NCBI GenBank assembly: GCA_944325625.1
Contig: CALVAP010000007.1
Location: 248,001 to 312,000 of the forward strand
DNA from: Candidatus Gastranaerophilales bacterium
GTDB lineage: Bacteria > Cyanobacteriota > Vampirovibrionia > Gastranaerophilales > Gastranaerophilaceae
Length of the DNA: 64,000 nt
Direction of reading: 5' to 3'
Part shown: positions 48,388 through 57,526 of the stretch, one piece after another
Layout of the letters: each line of letters opens with the position of its first letter
How positions within the stretch are numbered: position 1 is the stretch's first letter
Translations under genes and position numbers: made by a program
The notes under the pieces: model-generated
The model's input: only the letters and a program-made list of their open reading frames with translations
Told to the model about the DNA's origin: nothing
Databases searched by the model: none

Positions 48388-48415
48388 GTTAATACGCGTT
48401 TACGCGATTCTATCT

Positions 48416-48501
48416 GCCCTGGTGGTGGAATCGGTAGACACGTTGGACTTAAAATCCAATGAGACTAACCTCTCGTGCCGGTTCAAGTCCGGCCCAGGGC
48501 A
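48416..48501 (+). tRNA. tRNA-Leu (anticodon TAA)
   Basis: An 86-base class II tRNA. The acceptor stem is GCCCTGG / CCAGGGC, the discriminator is A, and CCA is not encoded. The anticodon arm is TTGGA-CTTAAAA-TCCAA with anticodon TAA, the long variable arm is GAGACTAACCTCTC, and the T arm is GCCGGTTCAAGTCCGGC. The anticodon loop is continuous: the group I intron carried by this tRNA gene in many photosynthetic cyanobacteria is absent. Confidence 0.96.
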
Positions 48502-48505
48502 AATA

Positions 48506-48789: not shown

Positions 48790-50046
48790 GTGAAAACAAA
48801 AGTTAGAGCATTTTCATATGTAGAATTATTGTTTGGGATGATGATTGTTTGTATTATCTTTATATCCGCAATACCCTTTTTGACGAGAAAAGCGTCAACA
48901 GTCAATGCTTCATCAGGTGAATTTCAGTGTTATACAGCGTTTAATGGAACAGAATTTCGTCTTTTTGAGCGAATGAAAAGAGGCGAGGGCGAGTTTTCTG
49001 CGCCTGTTGATGTTACGAATACCGGATGTAAATTTTTCAAACAAAAAAATGTTAATACATATAATCTTCAAATTATAGGTGGTGGCGGCGGTGGAAGCCG
49101 TTCCAGAGTTAGTGGAACAGGTGCATATTCAAATGTTTCTGTAGAAAGAGCACAAAAAGGTCAAAATGGCAAAAGCATTTCAGTACAGACAACACTAGGC
49201 GGAGTTTGGGATGAAAATGGAGTTTTGACTATTTATAAATGTCAAAATGCTGATGAGAATGTTCCACAAACTGATCCGTATAGGGAAGAATATTTGTATT
49301 GTGTGGGTGATGGCGGATTTGCGAAAAATAGTGTTTCCGGTATAGGTAAGGTTGGCGGTCGTGGTGTCAAAGAAATGGATTATTGGTCGCTTCTGGGTGT
49401 TTACCATGATATTCTTTTCAATTCCAAAACGAATGTTAATTCTATTCAATACGCAGGAAGAGGTAACGGTACAGTTACTTCGGATGATGACTTAACAAAA
49501 GTAAGGCGCATATTAGGTGAATCTCATTCTGTTTATATCAATTTGAATAATTACCTGAAATCAGGGTCGACAGATATACAATCTTTAAGAAATGCGGCAG
49601 GCCAGCTGCTGACGGTTATAAAATCATGGTCGTTTAAAACTACGGATAGTGAGGGTGGTGCAGGGGGATATTCAAGATTTGTGTTAAAAGATTATTCTGA
49701 TATCGACTGCATAAATGGAAATTGTCTTGCAAAAGGTGGCGACGGTGCAACAGGCAATACCTTAGTAAATTGTTCTTCAGCGATGGTGACTTATACAACC
49801 GCTTTTTGTAATGTAAATTCTTTGGATAACAAGTGTTCTTGTAGTTTATCATCTAATAATAAAGATTTGTATTCGTGCTTATACAATAAATCGGCAAGTT
49901 CTTCGGTATTTAATTGCAATGCGTCATCAACCAATGTTTTGGGAGCCGGAGGTGGTGCAGGATCTGGGGCATATCTTTCCAACGGCTATTCAATGCAAGG
50001 TTATGGCGGTATAGGTGGCGGCGGAGCTATAATAATCAAATGGTAG
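48790..50046 (+). CDS. Prepilin with glycine-rich, tail-fibre-like C-terminal domain (copy 1)
   Basis: The 418-residue protein starts at GTG, with GAGGGTG upstream. The N-terminus KVRA followed by FSYVELLFGMMIVCIIFISAIPFL is a prepilin signal with Glu at mature position 5. Then comes a region shared with the next two genes: SGEFQCYTAFNGTEF ... GCKFFKQKNVNTYNLQIIGGGGGG. The rest is glycine-rich with scattered cysteines and ends GGIGGGGAIIIKW. Such G-rich repeats closing on a short hydrophobic strand and Trp are known from phage tail-fibre adhesins with polyglycine helices. Likely a minor pilin or pilus-tip adhesin. First of six same-strand genes. Confidence 0.82.
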   Translation: MKTKVRAFSYVELLFGMMIVCIIFISAIPFLTRKASTVNASSGEFQCYTAFNGTEFRLFERMKRGEGEFSAPVDVTNTGCKFFKQKNVNTYNLQIIGGGGGGSRSRVSGTGAYSNVSVERAQKGQNGKSISVQTTLGGVWDENGVLTIYKCQNADENVPQTDPYREEYLYCVGDGGFAKNSVSGIGKVGGRGVKEMDYWSLLGVYHDILFNSKTNVNSIQYAGRGNGTVTSDDDLTKVRRILGESHSVYINLNNYLKSGSTDIQSLRNAAGQLLTVIKSWSFKTTDSEGGAGGYSRFVLKDYSDIDCINGNCLAKGGDGATGNTLVNCSSAMVTYTTAFCNVNSLDNKCSCSLSSNNKDLYSCLYNKSASSSVFNCNASSTNVLGAGGGAGSGAYLSNGYSMQGYGGIGGGGAIIIKW

Positions 50047-50062
50047 AAATTAAGAGGGTTTG

Positions 50063-51655
50063 ATGAAAAAATATAGTGCTTTTACAATGGTGGAATTAAT
50101 ATTTTCGATAGCTGTTATGAGTTTTTTTATGATAGCGCTTATTTTTTCTGTTGGAAAGAAAGCACAACAAAGAGCAGGAGAAGCAACTTCAGGTCGAGTT
50201 ATTTGTTATAAAAATGCTTCTGGGAAGTTAGATAAAGTTGTTGAACTTGATTATGGCAAAAGCATAAAGGTTGATAAGCAAGAAAATCTGGATGTTTGTG
50301 AATGTGAACTTCCGCAGAATATCCAATATTATACGGTTGATATAATAGGTGCAGGCGGAGGAGCTTCAGGAGCAGCTGTAGCACCGGTTGCAAATTATAA
50401 AGAAATTAATGGTTCTATTTCCGAACCTTTTAGTTGTACTTCAAATGCTACGTCATCAATGCCTACTTATTATACAAAGTCATCAGCAGGCGCAGCATCT
50501 TGTAAAACTCTTTTATCTTCGTATCCTTATTTTAATCCTGTGCTTGCGCAAACCGATGCTTCGAGAGTGCCTACATATGTTGTAAATCCTACAGTAACAA
50601 TTTCTAACCAATTTTCATCAATAATGGACAACACAACGTATAACGCTAATGTATTAAAGAATTTAACAGTATCGGTTGCAGGTGGGGCAGGTAAAGACGG
50701 TGAAACGCCTGCGATGTGCAAAATAACTAAGGATTTTGAGGTAGGAAATACGGTTTCTTGTTACTCCGGATATTCGGCGATTGAAAATTACAGATGGAAC
50801 AATGATGAAACTTGGATTTCTCCGACAGCCGGGCGGGTTATTCTAAATGGCGAAGTTCTTGTAAATGCCCCTGGGGGAAACTTTAGTGAGTGTGGAAATA
50901 CGAGTATGTTTTCATCTTCACCGGCCTGTAGTGGTGGACAAGCGTCAAATAGCTTGAATGCCGGAGTAGTTTCAGGCTCATATACATATAATGCTACGGT
51001 AATAGATAGTATGGAACTTGCAAGTGGAAGTGCCGGAAGTGCAGGAAGCTACGTTAGAAAAGAAAAGGTAAAAATAACAGATGATTTAAAAATAAAGGCT
51101 CAAGATGTTGGAAGCGGGGGCATAGCTGGTAACGTTGGAACAAATGGTGCCAATGGCGGGAATACCTGTTTTGTTTTGAGTTCAAGCACAAAATTTTGTG
51201 CAAATGGTGGTGCCGGTGGGGTAAAAAAGGCTGTTCAGACAGTATTCCCAACGAAGGATATAATTACCAATAACAATATAACTGGACGTCCTCATCCAAA
51301 TAGGGTTTTCAAGTCATATGAAGATGGACTGGTTGGGTCTGTATCAGATTATTTTACACAAGTATTCTTTTTAATGATTAGTGCAGAACAGCAAAAGAAA
51401 TATAATGGAGTTGCAGGTAAGTGTACGTTCAGTGCAAATAAGTTGACTTGTGAAGATGCAAAAACATCTGAAGAAATGAGCTATGGTCTTGGAGGAAGTG
51501 CAGCGCAAAGTGCTGTCAGATATGATTACATAAAGAGTTTTAAACTTTGTAATTCGACAACAGGTCAGTGTATCAACACGCCGGAGCATGATGCGGAATT
51601 TGTTTCCGGGCGAGGTGCAAATGGTAGTGGTGGAGCGATTATAATATCATGGTAA
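50063..51655 (+). CDS. Prepilin with glycine-rich, tail-fibre-like C-terminal domain (copy 2)
   Basis: About 530 residues. The start is the ATG at 50063 with AGAGGG four bases upstream. MKKYSA precedes FTMVELIFSIAVMSFFMIALIF, a prepilin signal with Glu5. The shared region is SGRVICYKNASGKL ... CECELPQNIQYYTVDIIGAGGGASG, and the C-terminus is GANGSGGAIIISW. Between lie many Gly-Gly and Asn-Gly turns and paired cysteines (for example CGNTSMFSSSPAC). It is a paralogue of the genes on both sides and overlaps the next by seven bases. Confidence 0.83.
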   Translation: MKKYSAFTMVELIFSIAVMSFFMIALIFSVGKKAQQRAGEATSGRVICYKNASGKLDKVVELDYGKSIKVDKQENLDVCECELPQNIQYYTVDIIGAGGGASGAAVAPVANYKEINGSISEPFSCTSNATSSMPTYYTKSSAGAASCKTLLSSYPYFNPVLAQTDASRVPTYVVNPTVTISNQFSSIMDNTTYNANVLKNLTVSVAGGAGKDGETPAMCKITKDFEVGNTVSCYSGYSAIENYRWNNDETWISPTAGRVILNGEVLVNAPGGNFSECGNTSMFSSSPACSGGQASNSLNAGVVSGSYTYNATVIDSMELASGSAGSAGSYVRKEKVKITDDLKIKAQDVGSGGIAGNVGTNGANGGNTCFVLSSSTKFCANGGAGGVKKAVQTVFPTKDIITNNNITGRPHPNRVFKSYEDGLVGSVSDYFTQVFFLMISAEQQKKYNGVAGKCTFSANKLTCEDAKTSEEMSYGLGGSAAQSAVRYDYIKSFKLCNSTTGQCINTPEHDAEFVSGRGANGSGGAIIISW

Positions 51656-53361
51656 AAAATAAAATCGGAAAACTAAATAAAAAAAAGGCAATGTCATTAG
51701 TTGCTTTATTATTTTCTTTGGCACTTTTGTCAATAATAGTTGGGATGTTTATTCCAGTACTTACGAAAGGCTATATACAGATAACGACTGGAAAAGGTGG
51801 GCTGGGAAAAATTAACCTTACAACTTCCAGCGGATATTTTATGTGCTACTACGAAGCAAATGGAGTTTTAACACAGGCTAGAGCAGATATTTCGCATACC
51901 GGTGAAATTAAACTTGTTAAAGAAGCTGCACCGTCTGGTGTGTGTAAGTTTGTAATTCCAAATAGAGCAGATAGTTTTAAGATAACATTAATTGGTGGTG
52001 GCGGTGGAGGTGCCGCGTCTCAAATAAAGACTTTGGATCAGACACTTGCTACAGCTAGTTTGGGTGGTTCAAGCACAAAATTTTCCATTCCTTCATTTTC
52101 TGATTGGACAAGTTATATATCAGAATCGAGGATTAATTCAGCTTTAGCTGCGCTTTTTTCTAACAACACTAATTCCTCAAATACATATTTGTGCATTAAA
52201 GGAAATAAAGGAAGCAATCTTGGAGCTGCAAATGGTGCCAATGGCGCTAATTGTATGGTTAGGTTTAACTTAATGCCTAAAATAAACAGCAGTTTTACAT
52301 TTGGGACAGAAGCCTCGACCAATTCTACTGTATACGCAAACAGTTATTATGTTTTGTATGAAGGCTCAAAAGCCATGGCAAGAGGTGGTGCAAATGCAGT
52401 TGCAATAAATGGAACAAATTCCTCACCCGAACAATATATTACAAGTTGTTGTGTCGGCTCTGCATTAGGTTGTCCAAGTGCGTTTAATGTATTGTGCAAT
52501 AAGATAAACAATGATTCAACGGGTGTTGGTGAATGTCAATATTCCGGTTCAAATTTGTCTGTGACAAAAGGTGGATATTGTACGTCAGGGACGCAGAGCA
52601 TAAATTTTGCAAACGGGACAAAAGTCTATTCCACAGCTCTTAGCGGGACTGTAAAGTTGTATTTGAAACGACGCGAAATAGTTAAATATACGGCAGGGAA
52701 AGGGGAATCTGGAGCAGTAGAAACAAGATCCGTTTCATTTATCTCACCAAATAGCGGCACAGATACATTTAATATTCCAGCCCGATGGCTTGGTATGGGT
52801 GGAATAGGAGGAAAACAAACAGGTAATACAAGTTATTCGGGAACGGCAGGTGGTGTAACAAAAATGGAACTATCTACGGCAGGGGATGAGTCTTTGTTGG
52901 TTCTGACGGCAGAAGGAGGTGCAGGTGGTGTAAGCCAGGAAGACGCGCAACATATTTCTGTTGGTACCTTTGCTAATCCTGATACTACAATAGATTCTAT
53001 TCCCGCAGGTACAATTTCCGGTGCTGACGGGGGATATACGGCTGATATTATTCCTCAACCACTTAGGATAACAATGCTTTCTACAGGTTTTGGCGTTGTA
53101 GATTGTAAGAATACAACTTGTGATGTAACGGCAGCAGCGACATACCCCGGAGCTGGCGGTGGTGCTGCAGGAGCGTACTACAGCGGATACAATAACGGTG
53201 CGTCGCCAAGAATAACTTTCAATTATGGTACCTCTTTAACAAATTATGTACTTGCGTCTGCAAACAATTCTTCTTCGGGAGTATCTGCTCCTGCCAGTCC
53301 AACGTTAAAATCTGGTAAAGGCGGTAATGGCGCCAGAGGAGCGATATTAATTTCATGGTAG
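51649..53361 (+). CDS. Prepilin with glycine-rich, tail-fibre-like C-terminal domain, lacking Glu5 (copy 3)
   Basis: The 570-residue protein has a longer basic leader (MVKNKIGKLNKKKA) and then MSLVALLFSLALLSIIVGMFIPVL. Position 5 of the predicted mature protein is Ala, not Glu. In type II secretion the one pseudopilin without Glu5, GspK, caps the tip. The shared region follows (SGYFMCYYEANGVL ... VCKFVIPNRADSFKITLIGGGGGG) and the protein ends GNGARGAILISW. It is the longest of the trio. Its ATG overlaps the previous stop, with no good Shine-Dalgarno, so translation is probably coupled. Confidence 0.82.
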   Translation: MVKNKIGKLNKKKAMSLVALLFSLALLSIIVGMFIPVLTKGYIQITTGKGGLGKINLTTSSGYFMCYYEANGVLTQARADISHTGEIKLVKEAAPSGVCKFVIPNRADSFKITLIGGGGGGAASQIKTLDQTLATASLGGSSTKFSIPSFSDWTSYISESRINSALAALFSNNTNSSNTYLCIKGNKGSNLGAANGANGANCMVRFNLMPKINSSFTFGTEASTNSTVYANSYYVLYEGSKAMARGGANAVAINGTNSSPEQYITSCCVGSALGCPSAFNVLCNKINNDSTGVGECQYSGSNLSVTKGGYCTSGTQSINFANGTKVYSTALSGTVKLYLKRREIVKYTAGKGESGAVETRSVSFISPNSGTDTFNIPARWLGMGGIGGKQTGNTSYSGTAGGVTKMELSTAGDESLLVLTAEGGAGGVSQEDAQHISVGTFANPDTTIDSIPAGTISGADGGYTADIIPQPLRITMLSTGFGVVDCKNTTCDVTAAATYPGAGGGAAGAYYSGYNNGASPRITFNYGTSLTNYVLASANNSSSGVSAPASPTLKSGKGGNGARGAILISW

Positions 53362-56863: not shown

Positions 56864-56962
56864 AAAAATCTTTCTACTTTATTTGTATTAAATTATTATA
56901 ACATGTTTTCTTTTTAATACAAAGTAGTGTAAAATGAGTGTGAATTAATAATGGAGGGTAGT

Positions 56963-57526
56963 ATGTCACAAAAAAAGGATGACGCTAAAAAAGGCAAATG
57001 CAAATGTTCTAAAATTAGAGTGTTTAATGGAGTAGTTCTAATAGCGGTGTTAGCGAGTTCAATAACATCGGCATATTATAGCTATAGTGTAAATAAAACA
57101 CTGGATGCTATTATAAAAGGGATACAGCCCTCAGCGGCACAAGCAGCACCTGCTACGGATTCTAACGATTCCATTACCAAAAAGTATGCAAAGAATAGAA
57201 CATTAGAGAAGGCTCAAAAAACCGAAAAGCCAATCATAGCATTTTTCTATGCAGATTGGTGCGGTTATTGTAAAAGATTTGCACCAACGTTTGATAAGAT
57301 TACCAAAAATGGTGATATTAAGTCTAATTTAGCTGTTGCATATATCAATTGTGAAGCTCCTGAAAATGCACACCTTATCAGCGAATACCAGATTCAAGGC
57401 TTTCCCACGGTATATTTGATTAATCCAAAGACAGGAACAAAAGAACAAGTTAATAATAGTGAACTTTTTACTGCCACAGCAGAAAGAGATCTTACACAAA
57501 AGTTTGTAAGTTTTGCAAAAAAATAA
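56963..57526 (+). CDS. Membrane-anchored thioredoxin-like protein
   Basis: The 187-residue protein has a cytoplasmic tail with CKCSK, one membrane helix (about 19-40), an Ala/Pro linker, and an extracytoplasmic thioredoxin domain. The active site is FYADWCGYCKRF (Cys100 and Cys103), and the cis-Pro loop is QGFPTVYLI. It would act on disulfides outside the membrane. It lies 120 bases upstream of the cysteine-rich 897-residue prepilin, which makes a role in folding that protein and other cysteine-bearing pilins plausible. The start at 56963 has GGAGG just upstream. Confidence 0.88.
   Translation: MSQKKDDAKKGKCKCSKIRVFNGVVLIAVLASSITSAYYSYSVNKTLDAIIKGIQPSAAQAAPATDSNDSITKKYAKNRTLEKAQKTEKPIIAFFYADWCGYCKRFAPTFDKITKNGDIKSNLAVAYINCEAPENAHLISEYQIQGFPTVYLINPKTGTKEQVNNSELFTATAERDLTQKFVSFAKK

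Follow-up and report, generated by a model that had tools for sequence, protein, structure and literature searches.

Three adjacent genes of a gut Gastranaerophilales bacterium, here called P1, P2 and P3, each encode a prepilin N-terminus fused to a large head that appears to be of the kind found on phage tail fibres. The products are most likely modular minor pilins, probably located at the pilus tip, that present phage-fibre-type adhesin heads. The genes lie in the window, a 64,000-nucleotide stretch of a Candidatus Gastranaerophilales contig, where they stand first in a cluster that comprises eight prepilin genes (Table 1). The initial annotation had described three adjacent prepilins joined to a shared block and a glycine-rich domain, and the corresponding ORFs are present. 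Its span of 48790-53361 covers these three genes but leaves out the remaining five prepilins, which reach to 60340.

Table 1 Features of the prepilin cluster, in window coordinates.
Feature	Position	Strand	Remarks
P1, modular prepilin, 418 aa	48790..50046	+	prepilin helix and TNF-like/glycine-rich head; ORF, AlphaFold2 model, Pam3 match
P1 class III signal and N-terminal helix	48790..48894	+	VRA^FSYVE, Glu at +5; model helix 10-35
P1 head, residues 43-418	48916..50043	+	TNF-like strands, glycine-rich segments, variable loops (predicted)
P1 GGGGGG motif in shared block, residues 97-102	49078..49095	+
P1 C-terminal end strand GIGGGGAIIIKW, residues 407-418	50008..50043	+	sequence, model
P2, modular prepilin, 531 aa counted from TTG	50060..51655	+	likelier ATG start 50063
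P2 head	50183..51652	+	SGRVICY...CECELP...IIGAGGG block, GGAIIISW end
P3, modular prepilin, 570 aa	51649..53361	+	class III-like signal without Glu+5 (A^MSLVA)
P3 head	51823..53358	+	SGYFMCYY...CKFVIP...LIGGGGGG block, GAILISW end
s1, small prepilin, 241 aa	53355..54080	+	overlaps P3 end; position kept in L088, L090, L091
s2, small prepilin, 244 aa	54073..54807	+
s3, small prepilin, 228 aa	54822..55508	+
Convergent prepilin, 449 aa	55514..56863	-	conserved neighbour
Large prepilin, 897 aa	57647..60340	+	conserved neighbour in L088 and L091

P1, P2 and P3 are single uninterrupted ORFs that overlap their neighbours or stand 13 nt apart. The N-termini are of the class III (prepilin) type, reading VRAFSYVELLFG in P1, YSAFTMVELIFS in P2 and KKAMSLVALLFS in P3. 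For P2, the ATG one codon after the listed TTG appears the likelier start from the sequence. The glutamate at +5 is missing in P3 as well as in its four orthologues (L088, L089, L090, L091). P2 contains an N_methyl match above the cut-off (G000:C7:298063, found in a search of its own genome), while a direct family search gives no N_methyl match in P1 and only E 0.067 in P3. As 21 of 33 homologues match N_methyl at E≤0.1, the prepilin assignment of P1 and P3 leans on the family. The N-terminal helix is present in the AlphaFold models of both proteins. P1-P3 combine a class III signal and prepilin helix with an extra, non-pilus-specific domain within one protein, as expected of modular type IV pilins (PMC8179133), which would also be assembled into a filament and exposed.

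The heads share the consensus G-x-(F/V)-x-C-Y ... C-x-(F/E) ... I-G-(G/A)-G-G, followed by glycine-rich segments and a G-A-I-(I/L)-I-x-W end. The two-cysteine block reads SGEFQCY...GCKFF...IIGGGGGG in P1, SGRVICY...VCECE...IIGAGGG in P2 and SGYFMCY...VCKFV...LIGGGGGG in P3, and the C-termini are GGGGAIIIKW, GSGGAIIISW and GARGAILISW, respectively. This short conserved block eases the recognition of a family that is otherwise named by its prepilin N-terminus alone.

The anticipated link to the glycine-rich family of tail fibres is borne out by other prepilins of the family. P3 scores 12.4 bits (E 0.15) against Pfam Gly_rich_2 (PF21722), below the curated cut-off of 24.3 bits, and P1 and P2 have no match. 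The model is matched by 15 of the 33 homologues at E≤0.1, with a best value of 9.7e-18, and several prepilins from other genomes of the family exceed the cut-off. Eight match phrog_863, 'tail fiber assembly', and matches to PHROG tail-fibre and minor-tail families occur among the homologues. As a composition control, a profile was derived solely from eight Gly_rich_2-type ORFs that are not prepilins. Against it, five prepilin heads score 16-28 bits, whereas none of the 1,977 scored shuffled heads reaches 10, which rules out a composition artefact as the source of the likeness. P1, P2 and P3 themselves score below 0 against this profile; their link to Gly_rich_2 is therefore one of homology to the positive members and of predicted fold. 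A PHROG search with P1-P3 and a PDB sequence search with P1 gave no match, and a profile search of the PDB returned pilin N-termini and chance matches, with no fibre among them.

The head also occurs outside of prepilins. Four homologues of P3 have a transmembrane segment and no prepilin motif (L056:7083-8630 (-), L057:1097-2554 (-), L093:9800-11347 and L092:10004-11461). They are single genes beside proline-biosynthesis-like genes, and their head is membrane-anchored rather than carried on a pilin. L110, L114 and L116 contain membrane-anchored proteins of about 230-270 aa that are not prepilins and represent a minimal version of the head, with the block GRFVC...NSCIFSRP...AIGGGGG and the end VIIQW. 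Gly_rich_2 ORFs that lack prepilin starts and are prophage-tail-fibre-like are found in L073, L104 and L105.

AlphaFold2 models were obtained for P1 and P3 from shallow alignments (16 homologues for P1, mean pLDDT 69.7; 7 rows for P3, mean pLDDT 57.7). In the P1 model, the shared block and most of the glycine segments lie at approximately 80-95 pLDDT, with core blocks above 90, and the inserted loops are low. Compared with known structures (VIA-align 2), both models find the tail fibre of cyanophage Pam3 as the best match: 7ypx_A aligns with P1 at Z 11.5 and rmsd 3.1 over 160 residues (model 41-418; the Pam3 fibre Z values are 11.5/10.9), and with P3 at Z 13.8 and rmsd 4.0 over 179 residues (model 50-570). 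Second for P1 and P3 alike is the tail tip of mycobacteriophage Bxb1 (9d93_Qb, Z 9.6), and third for P3 is the TNF-like/glycine domain of the LTK receptor (7nx1, Z 6.2). The rows that follow the phage proteins for P1 (Z of about 4-6.5) cover no more than residues 190-282, a helical insert of low confidence, and the remaining beta-rich rows reach at most Z 3.7; for P3, the other rows are below 5. The strong scores come from this second aligner, as Foldseek E-values against the PDB are not significant (best 0.66). Among the named viral-structure matches of Foldseek, 'glycine-rich domain-containing' and minor tail proteins predominate.

The Pam3 fibre, the Bxb1 tail tip and LTK have in common a TNF-like plus glycine-rich fold, and the predicted heads of P1 and P3 span both the sandwich and the glycine-rich part. 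Many glycine motifs of the P1 model are of high confidence and lie outside DSSP strands; a polyglycine-II lattice in the strict sense is a putative feature of the heads. Hence, the proposed likeness to phage fibres holds for both fold prediction and fold comparison, in which tail-fibre and tail-tip proteins are the top matches. The comparison with polyglycine-II adhesins is refined in that the nearest structure is the head of Pam3 gp24 rather than S16 gp38. The latter is not among the listed fold matches of P1 and P3, which carries no weight against a relation.

In the Pam3 fibre, a helical shaft leads to a TNF-like sandwich, and at the distal end lies a glycine-rich lattice in which a conserved stem carries a hypervariable receptor-binding tip (PMC9608196). 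Pam3 gp24 (PDB 7ypx, 7yfw) resembles P1 and P3 in its N-terminal helix, the TNF-like sandwich and the distal glycine-rich segments with variable loops. It differs in that it is a phage homotrimer, docked to the baseplate and provided with a chaperone, and the helix it has is not of the prepilin type. The authors of that study compare the lattice with S16 gp38 and with the ALK extracellular domain (PMC9608196). The gp38 adhesins of S16 and PP01, of the polyglycine-II type, have a glycine-rich lattice with protruding variable receptor-binding loops (PMC12892980; PMC9608196), to which the predicted heads may be likened; S16 gp38 has a beta-helix in the place of their TNF-like part. The ligand-binding domain of LTK and ALK (7nx1) has the same TNF-like plus glycine-rich arrangement, but these are animal receptor kinases with a protein ligand.

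On phages, the lattice is made of glycine-rich strands, and the receptor is bound by hypervariable loops at its far end. gp38 of phage PP01 binds OmpC via such loops (PMC12892980), and host recognition by a Klebsiella phage is altered when this domain of its fibre is mutated (PMC12671077). The heads of P1-P3 resemble these receptor-binding tips in their conserved core and variable loops. Among orthologues, identity is 40% in the predicted core and 23% in the loops of P1, and 39% and 20% in P3, with core and loop ranges that we picked from the AlphaFold models. Insertions of up to 61 columns sit between the glycine segments. P1-P3 share 31-35% identity with their same-genus orthologues, compared to 87% for the pilus ATPase PilB. 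Other prepilins of the cluster are diverged as well (30-48% identity to the same-genus genome). Fast change is therefore a property of the whole cluster, and loop variation by itself is no proof of selection for binding.

We assessed the distribution with a helix-plus-block profile of 16 rows and 97 positions, P1, P2 and P3 being among the rows. At 1e-7, it matches 61 of 292 genomes sampled from the phylum. All 61 belong to a single family of gut Gastranaerophilales, and exactly three matches are found in 32 of them. Within the family, 117 of 191 sampled genomes are matched at E 1e-6, although the score of the weakest may be driven by the prepilin helix alone. Near-full-length matches at E <4e-16 are found in at least 62 genomes of this sample, counted among the matches listed. 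Genomes that did not contribute to the profile still match (G152 at 3e-33, G132 at 2e-32). Because full-length matches reach genomes outside the profile's own rows, the shared helix and block exceed chance. The Gly_rich_2 ORFs inspected outside the family (L104, L105, L123, L124, L125, L127, L130) have no prepilin start. A large expansion is seen in some genomes of the family (among G105, G106, G133, G038 and G445), which have as many as 16 Gly_rich_2 matches or eight matches to the helix-plus-block profile.

The cluster runs P1-P2-P3, three small prepilins, the convergent 449-aa prepilin and the 897-aa prepilin. Conservation of the operon in other gut relatives had been put forward as a check, and this whole order is kept in the same-genus genome G001 (L088) and in L091 from goat caecum. 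It is found in part in L090 (SIG30 genome), up to the convergent gene, where the available stretch ends, and in the rabbit contig L089, which ends after P1-P2-P3. In other genera of the family, three such large genes recur in a row, followed by at least one small prepilin. A membrane-anchored thioredoxin-like protein (PF00085, E 1e-15) is encoded at 56951-57526 between the 449-aa and 897-aa prepilins and may serve in the handling of cysteine-rich pilins; the gene is missing from the matching place in L088 and L091. Directly upstream of P1 lies a tRNA-Leu(taa) gene (48415-48502). A tRNA-Gln gene is located upstream of the cluster in L088 and a tRNA-Leu gene in L042, and no tRNA gene is present upstream in L043, L053, L090 and L091 within the stretches examined. 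Promoter and terminator scans gave no more matches than in shuffled sequences.

The genome encodes a secretin, a T2SSE-MshEN ATPase and a T2SSF protein, a set characteristic of either type IV pili or type II secretion. A Tad-like set is present separately, as are two PilT-like ATPases; the labels Tad and PilT are taken from gene order and sequence reading. The N-terminal helix of P1-P3 would direct processing by a prepilin peptidase and packing into a type IV filament, in which the TNF-like plus glycine-rich head would replace the normal pilin globe, as the fold and family evidence indicates. The filament would be the one whose secretin, PilB-like, PilC-like and two PilT-like ATPase genes are in the genome. 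The large heads, the linkage of the three genes, the lack of Glu+5 in P3, as in the capping subunit of the GspK type, and the three small prepilins downstream lead us to infer a tip complex on this pilus. Since the core of the pilin heads is conserved and their loops vary, as in phage heads, binding of a receptor, glycan or surface through the variable loops is their most likely job.

Precedents for this arrangement come from two kinds of minor pilins. Streptococcus sanguinis PilB and PilC are prepilins that, like P1-P3, carry an added module, here an adhesive one (vWA or lectin), and they are modelled at the pilus tip together with PilA, which lacks Glu5 (PMC8179133, PMC9934059). They differ in their modules and in being two unlike pilins, whereas P1-P3 are three paralogues with one fold. 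GspH-I-J-K and their type IV pilus counterparts are an operon of several minor prepilins in which K, like P3, lacks Glu+5; as far as the sequences indicate, P1-P3 likewise include one Glu+5-less subunit encoded with other minor pilins. The sequence relation is seen only in the prepilin helix, and the extra domain of GspK is alpha-helical.

It is conceivable, if improbable, that P1-P3 act as pseudopilins in a type II secretion-like system, where their heads at the pseudopilus tip recognise or push secreted substrates instead of outside surfaces. The secretin gene, with its STN and Secretin_N domains and a GspD N0 match below the cut-off, is compatible with type II secretion, as is the ATPase with its MshEN domain, P3 lacks Glu+5 like GspK, and the order of modular and then small prepilins resembles the H-I-J-K set. 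However, two PilT-like ATPases suggest a retractile pilus, and hypervariable heads of about 400-600 aa (with relatives of more than 1,000 aa) are better suited to a partner that varies outside the cell than to a constant internal substrate.

We give very little credence to the heads being phage decoys or docking sites, or a captured phage tail-fibre gene without a role of its own. Phage fibres carry the same fold, and the tail-fibre-like Gly_rich_2 ORF without a prepilin start in L073 belongs to a genome of the same bacterial family; yet the three-gene set is kept across many genera as a maintained trait of this one family, and no close relative of P3 was found in 2.9 million viral contigs. 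Heads for DNA uptake on a competence pilus are equally implausible: ComGC and ComGE models are matched at E ~1e-5 in some members, but the ComG matches of the window proteins reflect only the pilin-wide N-terminal helix, far under the cut-offs, and the head is a known phage receptor-binding fold for which we found no link to DNA.

Returning to adhesin-bearing minor pilins, a more speculative arrangement, which we consider doubtful, is that P1, P2 and P3 join via their TNF-like parts into a hetero-trimeric, phage-fibre-like pilus tip whose loops are rapidly diversified to change the binding target. If true, this tip would be a bacterial counterpart of the phage tail-fibre tip, with the three-gene set kept across the family.

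Modular pilins are already known in great variety; 264 architectures have been described, in a text that does not name a glycine-rich module (PMC8179133). In the open-access literature, we found no paper on a pilin fused to this head. The idea of a new use of the adhesin fold on a pilus thus needs narrowing: a pilin with an adhesin module was already known, and what appears new here is the unusual module and the unusual three-paralogue arrangement. The literature searched yielded no account of how gut Gastranaerophilales attach, and P1-P3 are a concrete candidate adhesin set for them. Our results suggest that these gut bacteria hold on to their surroundings by a pilus that ends in a phage-style tip. 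One fold would then serve as a binding head on phage fibres, on animal receptors and now probably on pili, which raises the question of whether receptor-binding heads are swapped between bacteria and phages.

The prepilin complement of the genome (G000) looks large for its size, with 37 N_methyl matches in 1.7 Mb. A pilT-like gene (G000:C2) is flanked by a prepilin-like ORF (L120:1238-1972) and by L120:8344-8832. These ORFs have no Pfam match and contain GAVMFFD...CP..W motifs reminiscent of phage tail-collar domains, which we note as a lead only.
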